Shown in pieces: positions 8,533 through 42,400 of a DNA stretch of 43,103 nucleotides. A program made the translations under genes and the position numbers. The DNA is from Victivallales bacterium (GTDB lineage Bacteria > Verrucomicrobiota > Lentisphaeria > Victivallales > GWF2-38-69). The stretch's first letter is position 1, and the number at the start of each line of letters is the position of its first letter. Below the pieces are notes generated by a model. That model saw only the letters and a list, made by a program, of their open reading frames with translations. It was not told where the DNA came from and ran no database searches. The stretch spans positions 1-43,103 of the forward strand of contig JAIPJT010000022.1 of NCBI GenBank assembly GCA_021733985.1, given 5' to 3'.

Positions 8533-9561
8533 ATGGGAATATTACAGGATTTTCCTTTACCGCAAGAAATAGAAATTGATGAATCAACAGCGACCGAAAC
8601 TTATGGTAAATTCACAGCCGCTCCTTTTCAGAGCGGTTTCGGCCATACACTTGGTAATGCCTTAAGGAGAGTGCTGCTTTCATCACTGGAGGGCTCAGCA
8701 ATTTCTGCTATAAGGATTGACGGAGTAGCTCATGAGTTCGCAACTGTTCCAAAAGTAGTTGAAGATGTTGCAGAAATAGTTTTAAATATGAAAAAAATTC
8801 TGCTTATCTGCCACACGGATACACCGAAAACTTTAGAAATCCGCAAGGATACTGCAGGGGAAGTTACAGCTGCTGATATTAAGACAGACGGTACAGTAGA
8901 GATTATTAATAAAGGACAGTTAATTTGTACACTTGATAAAGATGTAAATTTCAGGGCGGAAATTGATATAGTTGACGGTAGAGGCTATAGACCGGCTGAA
9001 AAAAATAAGCAGGACGATCAGCCTGTAGGTACTATACCGATAGACAGTCTTTTTTCTCCTGTTAAACGTGTACGTTATGACATTGGCACCGCCCGTGTCG
9101 GAGAAGCAACAGAGATGGACAGTCTTGAACTTGAAATATGGACTGACGGCAGGCTTACACCACAGGATGCACTGGAGAAAAGTGCTAAAATTTTAAAAGA
9201 GCATTTACGTCCGTTCCTGGGCAAAGATGAAAGTCAGGATATTGAGTCACTGATGACCGACGAAGAAAAGTCTCTTTATAAACTCCTTGTTCAGGATGTA
9301 GATACTTTGAATCTTTCTGTAAGGTCGCAGAACTGTTTGAATAATGCAGATATTAAGCTTATTGGTGAGCTTTGCAATAAACCTGAATCAAAGATGCTTA
9401 AATATAAAAATTTTGGTAAGAAGTCGCTTGATGAGATTACCGAAAAACTGCAAAGCCTTGGTTTAGACCTGGGGATGACATATCCGGAGATTATAAATGA
9501 TGCTCTCCTCAAAGAGATAGAAAAAGCAAAATCAAACGTAGAAGAAAACGATGGAGAATAG
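8533..9561 (+). CDS. rpoA: DNA-directed RNA polymerase alpha subunit
   Basis: 342 residues, normal length. The N-terminal dimerisation domain (about 20-235) contains 'FGHTLGNALRRVLLSSLEGSAI'. The C-terminal domain (about 262-330), which touches UP elements and activators, has 'LNLSVRSQNCLNNADIKLIGEL' and 'KNFGKKSLDEI'. The start follows GGAG, 19 bp after rpsD. A Glu/Asn-rich tail closes the protein. Confidence 0.97.
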   Translation: MGILQDFPLPQEIEIDESTATETYGKFTAAPFQSGFGHTLGNALRRVLLSSLEGSAISAIRIDGVAHEFATVPKVVEDVAEIVLNMKKILLICHTDTPKTLEIRKDTAGEVTAADIKTDGTVEIINKGQLICTLDKDVNFRAEIDIVDGRGYRPAEKNKQDDQPVGTIPIDSLFSPVKRVRYDIGTARVGEATEMDSLELEIWTDGRLTPQDALEKSAKILKEHLRPFLGKDESQDIESLMTDEEKSLYKLLVQDVDTLNLSVRSQNCLNNADIKLIGELCNKPESKMLKYKNFGKKSLDEITEKLQSLGLDLGMTYPEIINDALLKEIEKAKSNVEENDGE

Positions 9562-28610: not shown

Positions 28611-31600
28611 ATGTTATCAGGAAAAGCTTTCACCGGTGGTAGAGGATATGCTCAGAATCATTTGAAATCCAACGACTATTACGAGAAAGGAAAAACCGTT
28701 AATGGTTACTGGCTTGGTAAAGCCTGTCAATGTTTTGGAGTAACAGAAGGTGCAAAAGTAACGGATGAAGAATTTGAAGCACTGAGAAGTAATCATAATC
28801 CGATATCAGGAGAACAACTTACCCTAAGAAATAATACAACACGTGTTAAGACCCTGTCTATCGAAAATGAAATTATTACGGAAACAGTATCAAACAGGCG
28901 AAGTTTTTATGATTTTACCTTTTCTGCACCTAAAAGCTTTTCTGTTATGGCTGTTACTCTTGATGATAATAGGATAAGAGACTGGCATGATAAAGCTGTT
29001 AAGAAAGCAGTAAAAGAGTTAGAAGTTTATACAGCAAGACAGGATCATACTTTTTCTGATATTGAAAGAACAGGAGAGTTTTGTGCAGCTCACTTCAAAC
29101 ATGACGCTAACAGGTCTCTTGAGCCTCAGCTTCACGACCATGTAGTTATATTCAATGCTACGCCTTCCAAGAAAGGCAAAAACTATGCGATAGAGTTCAA
29201 TGAATTTTATAAACGTTGTAAGTATATCACAGCAGTTTACAGGGATGAGCTGGCAAAACATGCAGCTGAAGGCGGATACAAAATTGAAATTGATGATCAG
29301 GGAGCACCGCAAATTTCAAATACAGAAGATATTGTTAAACACTTTTCAGGAAGAACCAGAATTATAGAAGAACATGTAAAAAATATTGAAGATGAAATTG
29401 GAACTGTTTTATCAAACTCACAAAAGAAACTCATTTCTTTTGCGACAAGAGGATTTGATGAAGAAAAGTTTGATAAGCTTTATGAGAAAAATAATTACGG
29501 GAAGAATTGGAGCAAGGAATCATACTTTAATGAGTATTTAAAGTTAGTAGGAATGTCCAGCAATTCAGGTTTGATAGAAGCAACAACACCGGATGTAATT
29601 GGAAATCAGAAGAAAAGTCTTTCAGAAGAACAATTACAAAGACTTGAGAATATTCTTACCATTTCTCAAAAATTGGAAATGGATATCCAAACTGGTAAAA
29701 CTAAACTCAAATCACCAGCAGTTTTATTAGATTCTATGGAGTTTTCAAGAAAACATAACTTTGAGAGAAAGAGTGTTGTTCAGGATTATGAATATTATAC
29801 TTCAGTATTAACACATTCATTAGGCCGAGGAACAGATATTGACCAAATGAAAAACTATCTTCAGTATCAGCTGGAGGATAACCAGCTTATTAAAATAAAA
29901 AATGAAATAGCAACAAAAGAACACCTGGAACAGGAGTTAAATATTATTGACTGGATAAAAGAAGGAGAAAATAAGTTTTCCAATATCAAAATTGGAGAGT
30001 TTATTCCTTCGGGTTTATTAAACAGAGAACAGCGAAATGCAGTAACTGAGCTTGTCCTATCAAAAGACCAGTTTAATGCTTTGATAGGACAAGCCGGTAC
30101 AGGAAAAACTTTTACTGTCAGTGAAATTGTCAGGGCAAATATAGAAAGTGGATATAATGTTCTGCTCTGTGCACCCTCAAATGGAGCAAGAGATGTTCTT
30201 AAAGAAGATGGCAGAAAAATAAAAAAAGAATACAACCAGCCATTAACAGCAAAACCTTTTGAATCAGCAGTATCTTTGCAAAAGCTTCTTGTCGATGAAA
30301 AGCTTCAAAATTCTATGGGAAACAATTCTTTAATAGCTCTGGATGAGGCAGGTATGGCTTCATTGAAGCAAATGAATCATTTGGCGAAACTTGCAAGAGA
30401 AAAATCCTGGAGGATACTTCATGTAGGTGATATAAAGCAGCATATTTCAGTAGAAGCCGGTGACGGTTTTAGAATTGAACTTAAATATTCAAATATTAAA
30501 AGATGTCAGCTAAAAAGAATTCAAAGACAAAGTAAAACTGCTATGAAAGGTAAATACAGACAGATTGCGATTGATTTAGCTTTTGGTAGAATAGCTGAAG
30601 CCTTTAACAACCTTGATAAACTTGGAGCTATTATTGAAGTGAAAAATTACGATATGTATAAAGCTCTTGCCGATGAATACATAAAATATTATGAAAATAA
30701 TAAATCGGTGGTAGTAGTCAATTCCACTCATAAAGAAAATTTCCTGGCATCAGAAGCTATCAGAGAAAGACTGAAAGAAAAAGGATTGATAACAAACGAA
30801 CAGAGGATAAATATAAACATCCCTTTAAACTGGACAAATGCAGAAAAGCTTGAGTTACGGAATTATAAACCCGGAATGATTATCGAATCTGTAACTGGAA
30901 AAGATAAAGGTTCAAGCTGGACAGTTAAATCAATCGATTTATCAAAAGGATTGAAGTGTATATCCGGAAATAGTGAAGAAAGATTTATCAATAAGGATCA
31001 GTTGAATTCATTTGATGTCTGTACTTCCAAAGAAATTATGCTTGGTATTGGTGATAAAATCATGATTCGTACCGGTGAAAAAAATAGAACTGGTGAACTT
31101 GTTAACGGTGAAATCATACAAGTCAAAGGCTTTGATAAATCAGGAAACATCATCACTGAAAATGACAAACTTATTTCTTCTAAAAAATTTACTTATGGAT
31201 ACGCTTCAACTTCCCATAAAGCACAGGGAAAAACAACTGAAGCTGTTCTTATAGGATTTGACAGATTTTCCGTTAGATTTGCAGATCAGAAAACAGCTTA
31301 TGTTGCAGGAACCAGAGGTGTTAATGAAATGAAAATATTCTGTGAAAATAAACTGGATTTATTAAAAATAGATACAAAAACAGGAGATAGAAAATCAGCA
31401 TTGGAATTAATTGAAGAAGCTTCTATCAACGATAGAAAAATCAGCGAATTTCAAAAAGACCGACAGCAAACAGTAGACAGAATGCGTACACATATATCAA
31501 ATATGAGAAAGATTGGAATTGTTTATGCCTTAGCAGAACTTTCTATTAAGCTAAAGTACAAGTTTAACAAAATCTTCAGTTCATCAAAAGAAAAATCAAA

Positions 31601-31676
31601 AACCGTTAATCTAAGCCAAAAACTAGAAAACCAGTATAAAAATACAAATCAGGAATCGTTTCATATTTCGTATTAA
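28611..31676 (+). CDS. MobF-family relaxase-helicase (TrwC/TraI-like)
   Basis: 1021 residues. The N-terminal relaxase (1-290) has Tyr candidates Y13 and Y23/Y24 ('NDYYEKG') and three metal-binding His, H164, H175 and H177 (PQLHDHVVIFN); the 11-and-2 spacing equals that of TrwC. The helicase part has Walker A GQAGTGKT (492-499), 'ALDEAGMAS' and a RecD-like 'ASTSHKAQGKT'. The protein would nick oriT, bind the 5' end and unwind the strand during mobilisation. It is full-length and apparently intact. AATATG follows a GGAGGATAGG ribosome site. No coupling protein or type IV secretion gene is seen nearby. Confidence 0.93.
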   Translation: MLSGKAFTGGRGYAQNHLKSNDYYEKGKTVNGYWLGKACQCFGVTEGAKVTDEEFEALRSNHNPISGEQLTLRNNTTRVKTLSIENEIITETVSNRRSFYDFTFSAPKSFSVMAVTLDDNRIRDWHDKAVKKAVKELEVYTARQDHTFSDIERTGEFCAAHFKHDANRSLEPQLHDHVVIFNATPSKKGKNYAIEFNEFYKRCKYITAVYRDELAKHAAEGGYKIEIDDQGAPQISNTEDIVKHFSGRTRIIEEHVKNIEDEIGTVLSNSQKKLISFATRGFDEEKFDKLYEKNNYGKNWSKESYFNEYLKLVGMSSNSGLIEATTPDVIGNQKKSLSEEQLQRLENILTISQKLEMDIQTGKTKLKSPAVLLDSMEFSRKHNFERKSVVQDYEYYTSVLTHSLGRGTDIDQMKNYLQYQLEDNQLIKIKNEIATKEHLEQELNIIDWIKEGENKFSNIKIGEFIPSGLLNREQRNAVTELVLSKDQFNALIGQAGTGKTFTVSEIVRANIESGYNVLLCAPSNGARDVLKEDGRKIKKEYNQPLTAKPFESAVSLQKLLVDEKLQNSMGNNSLIALDEAGMASLKQMNHLAKLAREKSWRILHVGDIKQHISVEAGDGFRIELKYSNIKRCQLKRIQRQSKTAMKGKYRQIAIDLAFGRIAEAFNNLDKLGAIIEVKNYDMYKALADEYIKYYENNKSVVVVNSTHKENFLASEAIRERLKEKGLITNEQRININIPLNWTNAEKLELRNYKPGMIIESVTGKDKGSSWTVKSIDLSKGLKCISGNSEERFINKDQLNSFDVCTSKEIMLGIGDKIMIRTGEKNRTGELVNGEIIQVKGFDKSGNIITENDKLISSKKFTYGYASTSHKAQGKTTEAVLIGFDRFSVRFADQKTAYVAGTRGVNEMKIFCENKLDLLKIDTKTGDRKSALELIEEASINDRKISEFQKDRQQTVDRMRTHISNMRKIGIVYALAELSIKLKYKFNKIFSSSKEKSKTVNLSQKLENQYKNTNQESFHISY

Positions 31677-33159: not shown

Positions 33160-34023
33160 ATGTTTTCTAAACCTGTTGAAGATCGGCTTTCTTATCTTGA
33201 ACTTTGCCTTTACTGGAAAGGTAGCGTAAATCGTATCGATTTGCGAAGTAAATTTGAAATATCAGTTCCACAGGCAACACAGGACTTTAGGAACTACCTT
33301 AAACTCGCGCCGGGAAATATTATTTATGACAAGAATGAAAGAGCCTATATTCCTATTGAAAAGACTTTTGAATTTAAATTCAAAGAAAACAGGCCTGAAA
33401 ACATTTTAAATATTCTTACTGGCAATAATAACGATAAGGATACCAGGAATAAGGTAAACGACTGCGTTTACAGCTTAAAGCCATACATAAAACAGTTTGA
33501 TCCCGGTATTTTGACAAAAGTTACACGGGCTGTTTTGCAGGATAATAAATTTTTAAAAATAGAATATCAATCCCTTCAGTCCTCAGAACCTGAGATTAGA
33601 ACGATTTATCCAACATCTTTTGGCTATTTCAAAGGCCGTTACCATATAAGAGCATTTTGTTTTACAAGAAATGATTATAGAGATTTTGTTTTAAGCAGAA
33701 TAATTTCAGTTGAATACAAAGATAAAATTAATAAAAAAGTACCTGAGGACATTGAAGCTAATTCAACAGTTGCAGCAATAATAAAACCTCACAGCAAATT
33801 ATCAGATACACAAAAAAAATGTATCGAACTGGAATATGGTATGAAAGACGGCTTTGCATGTATAACAGTAGAAAAGCATAAATTAATATATTTACTGGAT
33901 GATCTTAATCTTGTTTATCCGGAGCTTGAGCCTCCTTACACAGCTCTGGAGCTGGTAAACAGAGAGGATATTTGCATCAATAAAAACAGATTTCTGAAAG
34001 GATTTTATACTAATGAGTCTTAA
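33160..34023 (+). CDS. WYL-domain transcriptional regulator
   Basis: 287 residues. The order fits BrxR/CapW-type regulators: an N-terminal winged helix (about 5-75, 'LYWKGSVNRIDLRSKFEIS' and 'VPQATQDFRNYLK'), a WYL domain (about 120-200, 'LKIEYQSLQSSEPEIRTIYPTSFGYFKGRYHIRAFC' abbreviated), and a C-terminal dimerisation region. Such proteins often repress defence systems and sense an unknown ligand. The downstream GHKL ATPase overlaps its last 11 bases, indicating translational coupling. Confidence 0.85.
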   Translation: MFSKPVEDRLSYLELCLYWKGSVNRIDLRSKFEISVPQATQDFRNYLKLAPGNIIYDKNERAYIPIEKTFEFKFKENRPENILNILTGNNNDKDTRNKVNDCVYSLKPYIKQFDPGILTKVTRAVLQDNKFLKIEYQSLQSSEPEIRTIYPTSFGYFKGRYHIRAFCFTRNDYRDFVLSRIISVEYKDKINKKVPEDIEANSTVAAIIKPHSKLSDTQKKCIELEYGMKDGFACITVEKHKLIYLLDDLNLVYPELEPPYTALELVNREDICINKNRFLKGFYTNES

Positions 34024-34348
34024 GAAGATAACAGTCCAAGTTACTGATAATGCATTGCACAAGTACGAAAATTGCAATGTCAATGAAGCATTATTACAGG
34101 TGGTATGGAATTCAATAGATGCAGATGCAGTTAGTATTAATGTTGACATTGAAAAAATTAACGACTCACAGAGTCTTGATAAAAAAAATCCAATAAAAAT
34201 ACCTTCTCAAATTGTTATTAGTGATGACGATGAAGGAATACCATATGATAAACTAGAAAAATATCTTTCTCAGCTTGAAGATTCTTGGAAAAGAAAATCT
34301 ACAAGAAAAAATGGCAGGACATATCAGAGAAAAGAAAAACTGGAATAA
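34013..34348 (+). pseudogene. Truncated GHKL (HSP90-like) ATPase
   Basis: 111 residues. 'NEALLQVVWNSIDADA' (N box) and 'IVISDDDEGIPYDKLEKYL' (G1, D-x-G) are the start of a GHKL ATPase of the family that continues with a glycine-rich lid after 'SWKRKSTRKNGR'. The reading frame stops soon after, without the G2/lid motif. From about 34319 the DNA instead resembles the 3' end of the relaxase gene (see next entry). A real gene would be several hundred residues. It overlaps the WYL gene by 11 bp. It may be a defence-system remnant. Confidence 0.75.
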
Positions 34349-35026: not shown

Positions 35027-36445
35027 ATGTCGGGAAAATTAAGATTTAATCCTTCAAAATCAATATTAATTATAGATGATGACAGTCAGATATTAAATAG
35101 CATTAAAATGTCCTTGTTATCTTCCGGATTTAATAATGTAAACTGCATTCAGGATCCGAGAGAAGTTTTTAGTACCGTTAATTTCAGTAATGTTTCTATA
35201 ATTCTCCTTGACATGTTTATGCCGTATATAACAGGTGAAAAACTACTCGAGCAATTACAGGATAGGCATCCTGGAATTCCTGTTATCATGATAAGCGGAA
35301 TGAATGATGTAAAATCAGCTGTAAAATGTATAAAAAAAGGACTCACTGATTATATTGTAAAACCAGTTGATGCAGACTCTCTGCTTGCAAGCATTAACAA
35401 AGCTCTTGAAGTATCTGAAATACGATTAGAAAATAGCAGCCTTAAAGAACAATTGCTCACGGCTTCTTCTACAAAAAATGAGGCTTTTTCCTCTATTATA
35501 ACAAAGAATAATAAGATGAAATATATTTTTCGTTATTGTGAGGTTATAGCATGCAGTTCTCAGCCAACTCTTATAACCGGTGAAACTGGAACAGGAAAAG
35601 AACTTTTTGCAAATGCTCTTTATAAGCTTATCGGATGTGTAGGGGAATTTGTTCCTGCCAATGTAGCTGGGTTTGATGATAATTTATTTTCTGATACACT
35701 TTTTGGTCATAAAAAAGGAGCGTTTACCGGAGCTAGCGAATCACGGGGAGGTTTAGTAGCAAAGGCTCAGAACGGAGTACTTTTTCTAGATGAAATTGGT
35801 GATTTAAGTATTACTTCACAGGTGAAACTTCTTCGCTTATTGCAGGAAAGAGAATATTCTCCTCTCGGAACAGATTTAACAAAAAAGTCAAATGCAAAAA
35901 TAATACTTGCAACTCACAAAAACTTAAAAGAACTGATTAAACAGGATAAATTCCGCAGAGACCTTTACTATCGCTTATCCATGCATCAGTTTCATCTTCC
36001 TCCATTGAGAGATCGTCTTGATGATATTCCTCTACTGCTAAATGAATTTCTCGAACAGGCTTCAAAGGATTTAAATAGAAAACCACCTACTTATCATCCA
36101 GAATTGATAAAATTATTATGTTCCTATTCCTTTCCAGGAAATATCAGAGAATTTCAAGCTATGGTATATGAAGCAGTAAGTAAACATAAATCTCATATGT
36201 TATCTGCAACGGCTTTTAGGGAACACATAGGAGATAATACTGAAAACCATTTACAAAATCAGCAGACAAATAATAACTGGATTTCACAACTGCAAACACT
36301 ACCTTCATTAAAAGGTGTTTCTGATATTATTGTAGATGAAGCATTACGACGTTCGAATGGGAATCAGCGGATTGCATCGCGTATGCTTGGGATAACTCCG
36401 CAGGCGTTAAGTAAAAGACTTAAGGGAAGAAAAAGTGATCAATGA
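35027..36445 (+). CDS. NtrC-type sigma-54-dependent response regulator
   Basis: 472 residues in the classic three-domain order. The receiver (about 10-120) has D62 as phospho-acceptor ('LLDMFMP') and an intact Lys ('IVKPV'). The AAA+ domain has Walker A GETGTGKE (185-192), the sigma-54-contacting GAFTGA loop (231-236), 'GVLFLDEIGDLS' and arginine fingers in 'FRRDLYYRLS'. A Fis-type helix-turn-helix ends the protein ('GNQRIASRMLGITPQALSKRL'). It should open a promoter bound by RpoN when phosphorylated. The histidine kinase follows 31 bp downstream; a sigma-54 promoter lies before gvpA. Confidence 0.95.
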   Translation: MSGKLRFNPSKSILIIDDDSQILNSIKMSLLSSGFNNVNCIQDPREVFSTVNFSNVSIILLDMFMPYITGEKLLEQLQDRHPGIPVIMISGMNDVKSAVKCIKKGLTDYIVKPVDADSLLASINKALEVSEIRLENSSLKEQLLTASSTKNEAFSSIITKNNKMKYIFRYCEVIACSSQPTLITGETGTGKELFANALYKLIGCVGEFVPANVAGFDDNLFSDTLFGHKKGAFTGASESRGGLVAKAQNGVLFLDEIGDLSITSQVKLLRLLQEREYSPLGTDLTKKSNAKIILATHKNLKELIKQDKFRRDLYYRLSMHQFHLPPLRDRLDDIPLLLNEFLEQASKDLNRKPPTYHPELIKLLCSYSFPGNIREFQAMVYEAVSKHKSHMLSATAFREHIGDNTENHLQNQQTNNNWISQLQTLPSLKGVSDIIVDEALRRSNGNQRIASRMLGITPQALSKRLKGRKSDQ

Positions 36446-36476: not shown

Positions 36477-39400
36477 ATGAATGATAGGAAAATTTTAGTA
36501 GTTGATGATAGCCCTTCACAAACATTAAGGCTTAAGTCTATACTTGAGGGAAAGGGATTTTCTGTTGTTACAGCTAAAGACAGCTTAGACGCAATGAACT
36601 ACCTTGACGGTGAGAATACTCTGCCAGATTTGATGCTCGGCGACATAATCATGCCAAATATGGACGGAACTGAATTATGTGCAAAAATTAAAAAAACTTA
36701 TAAGAATGTACCTGTTATAGTTTTTACAGCTCATGACGGCGGAGAAAATCTGCAAAAAGCTTTTAATGCTGGCGCTGTGGATTTTCTGAGGATACCATTT
36801 TCAGATGAAGAATTGCTTCTTAGGATTAATAATGTTTTGAGAATGCAGAATATGATTGAGGAACAAGTAAAAGCTAAGCAGGTAATAGATGAGAGCGAAA
36901 AACAATATGCTGCTCTTATCCGGACAATACCTGACATAATATACAAGGTTGATGCTAGAGGAATTTTTACTTTTGTCAGCGAAGCCGTAAATCAATTAGG
37001 TTATAGCCCTGATGAACTTATTGGAAAACACTTTCAGGAATTTATACATCCAGATGATTTTGAAACAGTGGATCGCTGTAGTGTTCTGGAAGACTATACA
37101 GGAAAAATAACAGGTGATGAAGGATCGCCAAAGTTATTTAATGAGAGAAGAACTGCGGAAAGGGCGACTAGAGACCTTGAACTGAGATTGGCAGTAAAAT
37201 TACAGGATGGGGGTTTAAAAGAATATCGGTATTTTAAAATTGATTTTTCTGCCGGGCTGTGGAACAAGTCTGTTAAAGAAGAAAATAAAAAATATCTTGG
37301 AAGTGTTGGAATTGCCAGAGATGCTAGCAGACAAAAACAGACAGAAAATGATCTTGCAAACAAAACAGAGTCCCTGAAAGAACGCATCAAAGAACTTAAT
37401 TGTCTTTATGAAATTTCTAAATTAACAGAAAAAGAAGGAATTACACTTCAAGAAATTTGTCAGAGAATTGTCGATATAATACCTTCAGCCTGGCAATATC
37501 CGGAAATAACCTGTGCAAAGCTGACCATTGACAATGAAGAATATATTTCAACTAATTTTTTTGAATCACGGTGGAAGCTGGAATCCAACATTACTGTCAA
37601 TCATAAGAAATGCGGAAAACTTCAGGTTTTTTATGTTGAACAGAAACCGGAAGTTGATGAAGGCCCTTTCATAAAAGAAGAAAGAGATTTGCTAAATGCC
37701 ATATCTGAGCATTTTGGAAAAATTATCGTTCATATAAGAACAGAAAAAAAACTACAAATAAGCGAAAAACGGTTTAAAGACATTTCTTATTCTACTGGGG
37801 GCTGGCTTTGGGAAGTTGATGAAAAAGGCGTCTATAGATATTGTTCTGAAAACGTCTTACAGGTGCTTGGCTATCGTTACGATGAGATGCTATGTAAAAC
37901 GCCTTTTGACTTTATGTCTCGTGAAGAAGCAGGAAAAATAGGATCTTTGTTTGCTGATATTATAAGACAGAAGAAGCCTATTGTAGATTTAGAAAACTGG
38001 AATATTACTAAGGATGGGAAAGCAATATGTTTTCTCTCTAATGGCATTCCAATATTTGATAATAAAGGAAATTTAATTGGATATAGGGGGGTTGACAAGG
38101 ATATCACTGAACTCAAAAAAAATGAAGAACAAATCAAACTATTATCTGCTGCAGTAAGTACATCACTAAATGCAATAGCTATAAATGACCTTGACGGCAA
38201 ATTTAACTATGTCAACCCGGCTTTTGAAAGAATGTTCGGATATGCATATAAAGAATTGAGCAAAATGACGATACCACAGCTTATCCCGGTAGATTCAATA
38301 GAAAAATTAACAAATGAAATAATGCCAGCAATTGAAAAGGGTATTGGATGGATTGGAGAATTTCGAGGTTTGAAGAAAAATGGAATAGATTTCCCTATTT
38401 CAATGACTGCTGTTCTTGTAAAAGATATATTCGGCAAACCAATCGCAACAATTGGAACTTTTTTAGATATTACTGAGTCCAATAAGGAGAAAAAGGCATT
38501 GCAGGAGAGCGAGGAGAGATATCGCAGTGTTGTTCAATACATGCATGATGCGCTCATCATTGATGATATCGAAGGTAACGTAATCTTTGCCAATGATCGA
38601 TTCCTTAATCTGTTCGGTTTCAGCCGTGAGGAACTCCACTTGCTTAAGCTGGATGATTATATCGCTCCAGAATACCTTCCCTTGTTACGGGAATATCATC
38701 ACGCTTGTATTCGGGGTAAAAAGGTGCCGACGCAGTTTGAATATCAGGGATTGCGGCGTGACAAACAGCGTTTGTGGTTAGAGGTGAATGTCGCTGCAAT
38801 CACCGATCAGCAAGGCCGGGTGATTAATACTCAATCCACTATTCGTGACATCTCCCAGCGTAAGCAGGCAGAGGAAGAGCTGAAAAAATCATTGGATTAT
38901 ATAGAGAATATTTTTAAATCAGTGCTTGATATGTTAATTGTTATAACTCTGGATGCAACAATTAATACTGTCAATCCAGCAGTATATAATATTTTAGGCT
39001 ATAAAAAAGATGAATTAATTGGAAGGCCGATTTCTGATATTTTTGAAGAAGGGAAAAAAGAAGAGGGAAAGAACTTTTGCTGTATCGGGCTAGAAGAACT
39101 GATTAAAACAGGTTCAATTAAAAATTGTGAACATAATTATTTATCAAAATCCGGAGAAAAAGTCCCTGTCAATTGTTCTGTATTCGTTATGAAGAACGCA
39201 AAGGGTGAAAACATAGGTATTGTTATAGTTGCCCAGGATATGCGTATGATAAAGAAAATGGAAAAAATCATTAATGACAGAGAAGTGACATTGAGAAATA
39301 TGTACGACTCTAAGTTGATGGGATTTTTGCTATGGGATGCTGATAGTGAAATTATCGATAGTAATGATACTTTCTTAAAAATGCTAGGTTACTCTAAAGA

Positions 39401-40793
39401 AGAGTTTTTTTCAGAAGCCAAATTTTGGCAGGACATAGTGCCCGCAGAATATGTCCAGCGGGATATTAAAATTTTATCAGAATTGGCAGCTGAGAAAGAT
39501 GTTCTGCCTTTTGAGGAAGAATATATTTGTAAAGACGGGCATCGAATTTCGGCATTGGTCGGTGCAACAGTTTTACCGGATCCTGGCATTGGCGGAGCTG
39601 CTTTTGTACTGGATATTACTGAACGCAAAAAACTGAAAGAACAACTTCGGCAGTCAGAAAAAATGGATGCGGTAGGGCAATTATCGGGTGGAATTGCACA
39701 TGATTTCAACAACATACTTGCTGTTATTCTCGCAAATACCGAGGCTTCTTTGAAAAATATTTCAAAGGGGAAATCTCAAGTTAGGGACAGTTTAAAAGAA
39801 ATCCTATCAGCTAGCCTTCATGCGAAGAATGTTGTAAAACAACTTCTACTTTTCGCCCGTAAAACTGAAATAAAAAAAATGCCGCTAAAAATTAATGTAG
39901 CAGTTAGAGATGCCCTAAAACTTATTAAAACTTCCATACCTTCAACTATCACTCTAAAAACATATATTGCAGGAAATACAGGATTCGTTTATGCGGATCC
40001 AACCCAAATTAGTCAGTTGATGATTAACATTTGCACTAACGCAGTACATGCAATGGAAGAAAAAGGAGGTATTATTAAAATATCTCTGGTTGATGTTACT
40101 CTTGATGAAGAATCTGCATTTCAATATAGCGGTTTAAAACCGGGGAAATATGTTCATTTAACTGTAACCGATACTGGACATGGAATAAATTCAGAGGATA
40201 AACAACAGTTATTTGAACCATATTTTACAACAAAACCTATTGATAAAGGTACTGGTTTGGGGTTGGCGGTAACACATGGAATTGTCAAAGATTTAGGAGG
40301 TGATATTTTTGTAGAAAGCCTGCCTGGACAGGGCGCTAGTTTCAATATTTTGTTTCCTTATACTGAGAAAAAGCTTGTTTATCAGAAGAAAAAAGAAATT
40401 ATCAAAAAAGTGAAACCTCTGAAGGATTTTAAAATTCTTTTAATAGATGACGAAGAAGCTGTACTGAAAAGCCTGCAATTGATTCTCCAAATACGCGGAT
40501 TTGAGATTGAGGGAAGTACTAACCCACAGGAAGCTTTGGAGCTGCTGCGTGCCAATCCAAAGCATTTTAATTTGATTATAACTGATATGACTATGCCAGT
40601 GATGACTGGGGACAAATTGGCAATTGAAGCTCTTAAAATACGGCACGATATTCCTATAGTCCTCTGCACAGGTTTTAATGAGAAAATAGATGAAGAAAAA
40701 GTAAAAAGCATTGGCATCACTAAATATATTGAAAAACCTTTTACAGAAGAAGAAATCTTTCAGGTAATAAAGGAGGCTTTGGAGAAGAACTAA
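36477..40793 (+). CDS. Hybrid histidine kinase with two receivers and six PAS domains
   Basis: 1438 residues. Order: receiver 1 (1-120, D56); PAS 1 (about 145-260); GAF-like segment (about 305-420); PAS 2 to 4 (about 435-560, 562-675, 676-800); PAS 5 and 6 (about 805-1050); HisKA with H1075 (GGIAHDFNN); HATPase with N box 'NICTNAVHAM', 'DTGHGI' and 'GTGLGLA'; receiver 2 (about 1318-1438, intact D and K). Receiver 1 has Ile at 106 where the near-invariant Lys should be, so it may not signal normally. The fourth PAS (38500-38880) is much richer in GC than its neighbours. No membrane segment is seen, so it is probably cytosolic. It likely phosphorylates the adjacent sigma-54 activator. Confidence 0.93.
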   Translation: MNDRKILVVDDSPSQTLRLKSILEGKGFSVVTAKDSLDAMNYLDGENTLPDLMLGDIIMPNMDGTELCAKIKKTYKNVPVIVFTAHDGGENLQKAFNAGAVDFLRIPFSDEELLLRINNVLRMQNMIEEQVKAKQVIDESEKQYAALIRTIPDIIYKVDARGIFTFVSEAVNQLGYSPDELIGKHFQEFIHPDDFETVDRCSVLEDYTGKITGDEGSPKLFNERRTAERATRDLELRLAVKLQDGGLKEYRYFKIDFSAGLWNKSVKEENKKYLGSVGIARDASRQKQTENDLANKTESLKERIKELNCLYEISKLTEKEGITLQEICQRIVDIIPSAWQYPEITCAKLTIDNEEYISTNFFESRWKLESNITVNHKKCGKLQVFYVEQKPEVDEGPFIKEERDLLNAISEHFGKIIVHIRTEKKLQISEKRFKDISYSTGGWLWEVDEKGVYRYCSENVLQVLGYRYDEMLCKTPFDFMSREEAGKIGSLFADIIRQKKPIVDLENWNITKDGKAICFLSNGIPIFDNKGNLIGYRGVDKDITELKKNEEQIKLLSAAVSTSLNAIAINDLDGKFNYVNPAFERMFGYAYKELSKMTIPQLIPVDSIEKLTNEIMPAIEKGIGWIGEFRGLKKNGIDFPISMTAVLVKDIFGKPIATIGTFLDITESNKEKKALQESEERYRSVVQYMHDALIIDDIEGNVIFANDRFLNLFGFSREELHLLKLDDYIAPEYLPLLREYHHACIRGKKVPTQFEYQGLRRDKQRLWLEVNVAAITDQQGRVINTQSTIRDISQRKQAEEELKKSLDYIENIFKSVLDMLIVITLDATINTVNPAVYNILGYKKDELIGRPISDIFEEGKKEEGKNFCCIGLEELIKTGSIKNCEHNYLSKSGEKVPVNCSVFVMKNAKGENIGIVIVAQDMRMIKKMEKIINDREVTLRNMYDSKLMGFLLWDADSEIIDSNDTFLKMLGYSKEEFFSEAKFWQDIVPAEYVQRDIKILSELAAEKDVLPFEEEYICKDGHRISALVGATVLPDPGIGGAAFVLDITERKKLKEQLRQSEKMDAVGQLSGGIAHDFNNILAVILANTEASLKNISKGKSQVRDSLKEILSASLHAKNVVKQLLLFARKTEIKKMPLKINVAVRDALKLIKTSIPSTITLKTYIAGNTGFVYADPTQISQLMINICTNAVHAMEEKGGIIKISLVDVTLDEESAFQYSGLKPGKYVHLTVTDTGHGINSEDKQQLFEPYFTTKPIDKGTGLGLAVTHGIVKDLGGDIFVESLPGQGASFNILFPYTEKKLVYQKKKEIIKKVKPLKDFKILLIDDEEAVLKSLQLILQIRGFEIEGSTNPQEALELLRANPKHFNLIITDMTMPVMTGDKLAIEALKIRHDIPIVLCTGFNEKIDEEKVKSIGITKYIEKPFTEEEIFQVIKEALEKN

Positions 40794-40866
40794 ATACTTA
40801 TTATTCGTTCTTATTTTGTTCTATCGAGTTCCAAAGGATAAGAAATCATAAATTATAGAACCCCAT

Positions 40867-40883
40867 CAACTTTGGTTGATATA
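40867..40883. promoter_or_regulatory. Possible upstream activator box 1
   Basis: CAACTTTGGTTGATATA matches box 2 at 41038-41054 in 15 of 17 positions and is partly palindromic (CAAC/GTTG, ATCAAC/GTTGAT). It lies about 265 bp upstream of the sigma-54 promoter. Confidence 0.55.
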
Positions 40884-41037
40884 TCCAAAACAGTTTATTA
40901 TTTTTATGTGGTGTTCTTTTTCTCATGAACATCTGCAACAAAAACAATATATAGTATTTGGGCGCTTAGATATCAACTGTATATTGAATGAATGGCAGAT
41001 GTTTAGGGTTACCTCTACTGTTTTTTTCGAATATTGA

Positions 41038-41054
41038 CAACTTAAGTTGATATA
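41038..41054. promoter_or_regulatory. Possible upstream activator box 2
   Basis: CAACTTAAGTTGATATA contains the perfect 12-bp palindrome CAACTTAAGTTG. It is centred about 86 bp upstream of the -24 element, inside the range used by NtrC-type activators. The two TTGACAAT words nearby (41056 and 41095) add short direct repeats. Confidence 0.6.
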
Positions 41055-41130
41055 GTTGACAATATAAGTCCATCTTCATTTTAGCCTACATCTCATTGAC
41101 AATAAGTATATTATGGTTTATTTGCTATTT

Positions 41131-41146
41131 CGGCATGAATTCTGCT
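41131..41146 (+). promoter_or_regulatory. Sigma-54 promoter of gvpA
   Basis: CGGCATGAATTCTGCT fits the -24/-12 pattern (consensus TGGCACG, four bases, TTGCA): GG at 41132-41133 and GC at 41144-41145 separated by exactly ten bases. Transcription would begin near 41157, giving a leader of about 110 bases before gvpA. The gap 40794-41265 contains no gene. Confidence 0.7.
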
Positions 41147-41265
41147 TAACTAAGTAACCATGCACGTTAAACGGATTTGACCCAATTAATTCGGTTGTTA
41201 GATTCAGATTAGTTCTGAGTTGCCGTTTTAATAGGAGGGGGATCCAGAAAGCAAGGAGTCATATC

Positions 41266-41472
41266 ATGGCTGTAGAAAAAACAATCGGTAGTTCCAGCCT
41301 CGTGGAAGTTGTAGACAGGATTCTTGACAAAGGTATTGTTGTTGACGCATGGGCACGTGTATCTTTGGTAGGAATTGAACTCCTAGCGATTGAAGCTCGC
41401 GTAGTTGTAGCTTCAGTAGAAACATATCTGAAATATGCGGAAGCTATCGGCTTAACAGCTACAGCAGCATAA
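41266..41472 (+). CDS. gvpA: Gas vesicle structural protein GvpA
   Basis: 68 residues, near the usual 70. '[42 protein letters not shown]' (abbreviated in this note) is the near-invariant GvpA core: helix, beta-turn-beta, helix. '[14 protein letters not shown]' ends it. GvpA polymerises into the rib wall of the hollow, gas-filled cylinders that give cells buoyancy. Behind it come two GvpC-like genes. GGAGG lies about 25 bases upstream and AAGGAG about nine bases upstream of the ATG. Confidence 0.97.
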
Positions 41473-41647: not shown

Positions 41648-42400
41648 ATGAATTCTGTCAACAAAAAAAAAGCATTGCGGACTAATAAACCAATCACCGC
41701 AAAAAATGAACCTGATAAAAGTAATGACAGACCTGCGGATAGAGGGAATAAGATGGAAAATCAGGCTGCTGAAAACATGAAAAATATTGCGGAGGAAGTA
41801 CTTCGATTCTATGAATCGAGTATTGATAAAGTCAGTACCATGGTTAACAGCACAAACCGTATACTTAATGAATTCAGAGTAGAACGAAATACTGCCAATA
41901 GTACTCTGAAAGATTCACTCGCGAAAGAAAAATCTGTAAGAAAAAAAGACTTTGATAATATATTAGATGAAATGATTCCTTTTCATGATGAAAAAGAGGA
42001 ACAGATTAAAACTACCTTAAATGACTTCCTGAATGAACAGAAAAAGGCTGCAGAAACGATTAAGAGAAAACTGTCGTCTAATGAAAAAATTAGATTTGAT
42101 GAATTCAGAGAAATGCTCAGTGAAATTCAGGGAGATAGGGAAAACAGGGAAAGTGAAGTCAGGGAAATGCTTCAGGAATTTCAGATGGAATACAAAAAAA
42201 TGGGTGAAGCTCTGCAGAATTTCTTAAAGATGGATAAATCAGTGCGTATAAGAGATGTGCGCGATATGATGAGAGATTTCAAAAAAGAAAGAGTGAAGAG
42301 AAAAACCGAGGCAAGAGAAAGAGCAGTAGAATGGCAGGAAACAGCCCAAAGGCTGGCCAGAGAAAGAGCTGAGAGAATAAGGAAAAAAATAGAAGTTTAG
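41648..42400 (+). CDS. GvpC-like repeat protein 1
   Basis: 250 residues from the ATG at 41648, or 215 from an ATG at 41753 with a better ribosome site (AGAGGGA). An N-terminal anchor 'KNIAEEVLRFYESSIDKV' is followed by helical repeats with a clear 51-residue period. The motif V/I-R-x-x-D/E-F-x-x-x-L recurs as VRKKDFDNILDEM, IRFDEFREMLSEI and VRIRDVRDMMRDF. It ends in an Arg/Glu-rich helix. Its place after gvpA and its repeated helices suggest a gas-vesicle wall-strengthening protein like GvpC. It is homologous to the next gene. Confidence 0.7.
   Translation: MNSVNKKKALRTNKPITAKNEPDKSNDRPADRGNKMENQAAENMKNIAEEVLRFYESSIDKVSTMVNSTNRILNEFRVERNTANSTLKDSLAKEKSVRKKDFDNILDEMIPFHDEKEEQIKTTLNDFLNEQKKAAETIKRKLSSNEKIRFDEFREMLSEIQGDRENRESEVREMLQEFQMEYKKMGEALQNFLKMDKSVRIRDVRDMMRDFKKERVKRKTEARERAVEWQETAQRLARERAERIRKKIEV

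Follow-up and report, generated by a model that had tools for sequence, protein, structure and literature searches.

We propose that gvpA in the window, by which we mean the whole 43,103-nucleotide stretch of DNA analysed here, is very probably under a sigma-54 promoter that the neighbouring activator would open from two upstream dyads via looping. The proposal draws on the recurrence of the dyad, at the same distance from sigma-54 promoters, in an oxygen-stress locus of a related genome, and on the conservation of the promoter before gvpA in other genomes of the phylum.

Results

The window is one contig (G000:C45) in full, whose end falls inside the gas-vesicle region. The activator gene is followed by a hybrid kinase gene and then by gvpA (Table 1). 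Domains PF00072, PF00158 and PF02954 all score above cut-off in the activator, and its translation contains GAFTGA, which places it among the NtrC-type regulators. The kinase, of 1438 residues, starts 31 bp downstream of the activator and is likely its partner; 472 bp separate the end of its gene (40793) from the gvpA start (41266). The GvpA product belongs to the GvpA family by both Pfam PF00741 (57.6 bits, above the curated cut-off) and NCBIfam NF006874 (132 bits, above cut-off). A coiled-coil gene, for which a Pfam search returned no family, probably shares an operon with gvpA, and genes resembling it likewise come after gvpA in relatives. The second coiled-coil gene, possibly GvpC-like, has 120-bp tandem repeats that match at 97% and run into the contig end. 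These repeats probably broke the assembly there, since GvpF/L has no match anywhere in the genome of the window (G000), and the assembly lacks the remainder of the gas-vesicle cluster.

Two further features of the window lie ahead of the activator. A MobF-type relaxase (TrwC domain plus helicase; 28611-31676) is encoded ~3.4 kb ahead of it, which raises the possibility that a mobile element carries or adjoins the gas-vesicle locus; a DNA search with the window only found no match in plasmids. A WYL-domain gene is followed by a short HATPase_c_3 reading frame (34013-34348, 111 aa), which resembles the truncated N-terminal part of some larger protein.

Table 1 Features of the window, and sigma-54 sites before gvpA in relatives
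Feature	Position	Strand	Sequence	Basis or remark
Activator: response regulator, receiver + sigma-54 AAA+ + Fis-type HTH	35027..36445	+		Pfam, translation
Hybrid histidine kinase: receiver, multiple PAS, HisKA, HATPase, receiver	36477..40793	+		Pfam
Putative distal operator dyad, centre 40872.5	40865..40880	+	ATCAACTTTGGTTGAT	best in 43 kb, G002-only matrix
Putative proximal operator dyad, centre 41043.5	41036..41051	+	GACAACTTAAGTTGAT	second-best in 43 kb, G002-only matrix
Sigma-54 (-24/-12) promoter core	41131..41146	+	CGGCATGAATTCTGCT	exact GG-N10-GC; orthologous sites before gvpA elsewhere
Predicted 5' leader, ~109 nt, Shine-Dalgarno-like AGGAG ahead of start codon	41157..41265	+		inferred from promoter position
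gvpA, major gas-vesicle protein, 68 aa, target gene	41266..41472	+		PF00741, NF006874
Coiled-coil gene 3' of gvpA	41648..42400	+		translation; similar N-termini in L026, L088, L089
Second coiled-coil gene, 120-bp tandem repeats, cut by contig end	42479..43103	+		translation and repeat analysis
gvpA sigma-54 site, G002			TGGCAAGCTAATTGCT	
gvpA sigma-54 site, G033			TGGCATCCTTCATGCT	
gvpA sigma-54 site, G138			TGGCATTCATATTGCT	two copies
gvpA sigma-54 site, G054			TGGCACGCCGGTTGCT	two
gvpA sigma-54 site, G059				three
gvpA sigma-54 site, G307			TGGCACGCTTCCTGCT	

The sequence-only reading had claimed an exact GG-N10-GC element before gvpA, and the letters agree, with GG at 41132-41133 and GC at 41144-41145. 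The element scores 10/12 against TGGCACG-N4-TTGCW, equalled in 7/1000 shuffles of the 300 bp before gvpA; its -25 base is C, where T is usual. The transcript is predicted to start at ~41157, and the leader that would follow folds weakly (z -1.9) and gave nothing credible in an Rfam search. Our search for gvpA covered the class (198 genomes) and the phylum (388), and upstream regions cut by a contig end are left out of the promoter count. A GG-N10-GC site is present in all 11 intact gvpA upstream regions (six other genomes of the phylum and the window), 79-138 bp before the start codon, and the sites of the relatives score 10-12/12. Together with an intact sigma-54 gene, rpoN, in the genome of the window (PF04552 match, E 4.4e-59), this conservation supports the assignment of a sigma-54 promoter to gvpA.

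Box 1, CAACTTTGGTTGATATA (40867-40883), and box 2, CAACTTAAGTTGATATA (41038-41054), are exact 17-mers with 15 of 17 bases in common, and one includes a perfect palindrome, all as the sequence-only reading had described; the palindrome, CAACTTAAGTTG, is 12 bp long. What we correct is the unit: a dyad of 14-16 bp, ATCAAC-N4-GTTGAT, describes the repeat better, and box 1 is likewise a dyad, with 6-bp perfect arms flanking TTTG. Measured upstream from the -24 GG, the proximal dyad is centred at 88.5 bp (~-113 relative to the predicted start) and the distal dyad at 259.5 bp, 171 bp from the proximal one. Pairs of 17-mers matching at 15/17 or better arose in 32/2000 dinucleotide shuffles of 40794-41130 and in 44/2000 for 40794-41265; judged within the upstream region alone, the direct repeat is thus suggestive, moderately unlikely by chance. 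The pair becomes convincing because of its genome-wide uniqueness and a cross-genome match. CAACTT-NN-GTTGATATA has no other exact copy in the 2.46-Mb assembly, and other box-like matches in this genome whose loci were examined have no sigma-54 site nearby.

The cross-genome match comes from a genome of the same family, G002, in which an activator 57% identical to that of the window over its whole length (G002:C48, L084) is flanked by genes for rubrerythrin, Hsp20, ferritins, Fe-SOD, a PAS kinase, a DUF2934 protein and hemerythrin. Three sigma-54 sites at this locus, TGGCATGTATAATGCT, TGGCATGCATAATGCT and TGGCATACATAATGCT, precede the rubrerythrin, SOD and DUF2934 genes, and each promoter has the dyad TCAACTT-NN-GTTGA with at most two differences; the form shared with the window is TATCAAC-N4-GTTGA. 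From dyad centre to -24 GG, the dyad being upstream, we measured 88.5 bp for rubrerythrin, 87.5 bp for SOD, 87.5 bp for DUF2934 and 88.5 bp for the window. The window dyad is therefore placed as an enhancer would be, its position constrained relative to the promoter (in four promoters) at ~80-150 bp upstream of the start. Distal dyads have no common spacing (230.5 bp for rubrerythrin, 186.5 bp for DUF2934, 259.5 bp for the window), and the SOD promoter has one box only. The distal rubrerythrin dyad lies between two divergent genes and therefore might serve the activator gene. A stretch that we examined for IHF sites is 70-77% AT in all four dyad promoters; the window has no convincing IHF site, and one weak, one-mismatch candidate is inconsistent among the promoters.

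The two loci thus have in common a 57%-identical activator, the dyad, the 88-bp spacing and a sigma-54 core, GGCATR-N-AT-NN-TGCT. They differ in their targets, which are rubrerythrin, Fe-SOD and the DUF2934 gene in G002:C48 and gvpA in the window, and their kinases are only partly similar (36% over 247 residues). The window's own genome encodes a rubrerythrin orthologue (74% identical), but the flank examined there shows neither a sigma-54 site nor the dyad.

Several searches show how closely the dyad keeps to these loci. We gathered 34 sigma-54-like sites of G000, G001 and G002 by promoter pattern alone, disregarding boxes. Four of them, namely the window and the three G002:C48 promoters, have dyads of 14-16/16, and the remaining 30 reach at most 12/16 anywhere in 280 bp and at most 9/16 at the fixed distance. 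A composite box-spacing-promoter pattern of 20 fixed positions, run at both spacings on 198 genomes of the class, matched the same four promoters and nothing else with 0-1 mismatch, where ~0.13 chance matches are expected by our own arithmetic from 72 matches at three mismatches or fewer; at 2-3 mismatches the count is about level with a reversed-pattern control. With a matrix built from the five G002 sites only, the two window boxes are the top matches in 43 kb (21.8 and 16.1), ahead of a third at 13.4, and one side of the dyad reads TATCAAC in 7/7 sites from G002 and the window. The motif search before other genes that had been suggested as a check thus finds the dyad again, at the G002 rubrerythrin, Fe-SOD and DUF2934 promoters. 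The same dyad and spacing around a 57%-identical activator, and nowhere else in 198 genomes at one mismatch or fewer, support the idea that the boxes are operators of the neighbouring activator, which we predict to bind them. When we looked for the dyad in the neighbourhood of 30 further activators whose DNA-binding domain is similar, G002:C48 alone had it, so the operator would not be general to the wider subfamily.

We sought this activator type with the last 47 residues of the window activator as query. One protein in the genome of the window (the window activator itself) and two in G002 have this type of DNA-binding domain, the single copy in the window's genome being a further point in favour of the boxes as its operators. 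A scan of genome contigs with the activator as query gave distant regulators only. A tree of 29 activators groups the window protein with both G002 proteins (100/100), and within this clade the G002 proteins are sisters (99/96). Of these two, one is encoded next to the gas-vesicle cluster (G002:C19) and the other in the oxygen-stress locus (G002:C48). The window's single copy sits at gvpA, yet the dyads beside it are of the operator type of the G002 stress locus. The simplest reading would be that a single ancestral activator was duplicated in G002 and that either a stress target or a gas-vesicle target was acquired; this history draws on two genomes, which cannot give the direction of the target change.

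Upstream of gvpA itself, the window dyad was found in none of these relatives, same-family G002 included. Absence of the boxes from close relatives' gvpA had been named beforehand as grounds for giving up the operator model, and taken literally that is what we see; this does not by itself make the boxes meaningless, and the comparison shows a conserved sigma-54 promoter with what appears to be a lineage-specific dyad operator, because gvpA in the relatives adjoins different activators or a diverged paralogue.

Other elements stand before gvpA in these genomes. The gvpA promoters of G054, G059 and G307 have in common another block, GGGAA-N3/4-TTCC-ATA (e.g. GGGAATCGATTCCATAG, GGGAAACATTTCCATAA), ~75-80 bp upstream of the sigma-54 site (L035, L041, L042, L043, L044, L083), which is a candidate operator of another gas-vesicle activator lineage. 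In G002, the perfect 17-bp palindrome ATCGACAATTTGTCGAT, with an odd centre, lies 188 bp upstream of the gvpA -24 element (L034 1168-1184; G002:C19:8103-8119). As a gvpA operator it could not be validated, having one exact copy in the genome and one-mismatch matches at control level. The interval from activator to gvpA in G033 contains a long inverted repeat, GTTGCTAAGTTAAGCC ... GGCTTAACTTAGCAAC (L026 ~8630-8730), which resembles a small mobile-element remnant.

Discussion

The protein bound cannot be told from the box sequence alone, and if one repressor acted on both the stress genes and gvpA, the two genomes would likewise have a dyad in common. The dyads could then be operators of a different regulator, such as a redox repressor of oxygen-defence and gas-vesicle genes, with the activator binding elsewhere; in other relatives, the kinase and activator are usually away from any recognisable target. 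We consider this improbable, as the spacing from dyad to -24 element is fixed within 1 bp at four sigma-54 promoters, which is expected of an enhancer, and all four lie within the loci of two closely related activators. Moreover, G001, a genome of the same family, has neither this activator domain type nor composite sites.

Even less credit is due to a sigma-70 promoter, TTGACA-18-GACAAT (41034-41063), as the driver of gvpA, with box 2 an overlapping repressor site and the sigma-54 match fortuitous. This candidate matches at 10/12 and does overlap box 2, and sigma-70-like sites are commoner here than in shuffles of this AT-rich stretch (8 vs 3.7 plus or minus 1.8), but its -10 (GACAAT) is poor, the G002 dyads have no TTGACA at the corresponding place, and every intact gvpA upstream region has its sigma-54 site at 79-138 bp. 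That the two boxes have no function, being a direct repeat that arose by chance or has decayed within this AT-rich intergenic DNA, would accord with their absence at other relatives' gvpA and with the 1.6-2.2% of shuffles that yield a pair as good; their independent recurrence in G002 at the same spacing and the reciprocal matrix test favouring them make this scarcely credible.

We therefore return to activation from the paired dyads. The promoter, the dyads, their fixed spacing, the conservation and the intact activator domains are read directly from the sequences; the course of events is a model built on them. Sigma-54 RNA polymerase would transcribe gvpA from its -24/-12 element once the activator has opened the closed complex. 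The adjacent hybrid kinase, whose PAS domains may sense a soluble or redox signal, presumably phosphorylates the activator. Activator dimers would bind the two dyads (consensus TATCAACTT-NN-GTTGATA) through the Fis-type HTH, assemble, and reach the sigma-54 polymerase by looping over the AT-rich 80-bp spacer, the distal box having a presumed part in this; gvpA and the coiled-coil genes behind it would then be transcribed. Weighing against this explanation, the dyads are known from two genomes only and are missing at G002 gvpA despite an activator paralogue in the gvp cluster; the varied distal spacings, the single box at the SOD promoter and the C at -25 in the window also count against it. 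That oxygen or redox stress is the signal is a guess, made because the sister activator is located among rubrerythrin, SOD, ferritin and hemerythrin genes.

Comparable control is known elsewhere. According to the available text of the Serratia sp. ATCC 39006 studies, the start of gvpA1 has been mapped and has a consensus sigma-54 site, the NtrC-type GvrA is required (PMC4982088), an rpoN mutant makes no vesicles (PMC11778176), and gas-vesicle expression is raised at low oxygen, with no GvrA binding site described in that text (PMC4982088, PMC11778176). Like the window, Serratia 39006 has, as far as that text goes, a gvpA-first operon, a sigma-54 promoter and an NtrC-type regulator gene in the gas-vesicle locus (PMC4982088), but it is an unrelated bacterium, whereas the window has a predicted operator and, as activator, a response regulator that is encoded beside a PAS hybrid kinase and has its sister protein among oxygen-defence genes. 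In Desulfovibrio vulgaris, the DVU2106 and orp operons have sigma-54 promoters with palindromic activator sites at ~-88 and -131 and IHF-assisted looping (PMC3897727). The site position is like that of our proximal dyad, but activator, palindrome and targets differ, and the window has no convincing IHF site. The sigma-54 regulome of the same species, in the part of the account available, has activator genes beside the promoters they control, palindromic motifs and regulons of one to four operons (PMC4641369), and thus shares with the window the co-location of activator gene and sigma-54 promoter; that part mentions neither a regulon for gas vesicles or rubrerythrin nor a CAAC-N4-GTTG motif (PMC4641369). 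The kind of control proposed here is therefore already known, from Serratia, and what is added is the specific operator, its spacing and the link to oxygen-stress genes.

Beyond making a guessed promoter into a testable unit, with a defined activator, operator, fixed spacing and predicted start, the comparison bears on how flotation is regulated. Sigma-54 control of gvpA is general in our phylum sample, with activator and operator varying by lineage. It is possible, although we place it slightly on the doubtful side, that a single operator code, used by one activator subfamily, governs flotation in one genus and oxygen defence (rubrerythrin, Fe-SOD) in a different one. The gas vesicles of this lineage would in that case belong to an oxygen-stress regulon or have been recruited from one, and in the duplicated activators of G002 we would see a stress branch separating from a gas-vesicle branch. 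To our knowledge, oxygen or redox control of flotation has been little studied outside Serratia and haloarchaea; our findings suggest that flotation in this lineage may respond to such a signal.
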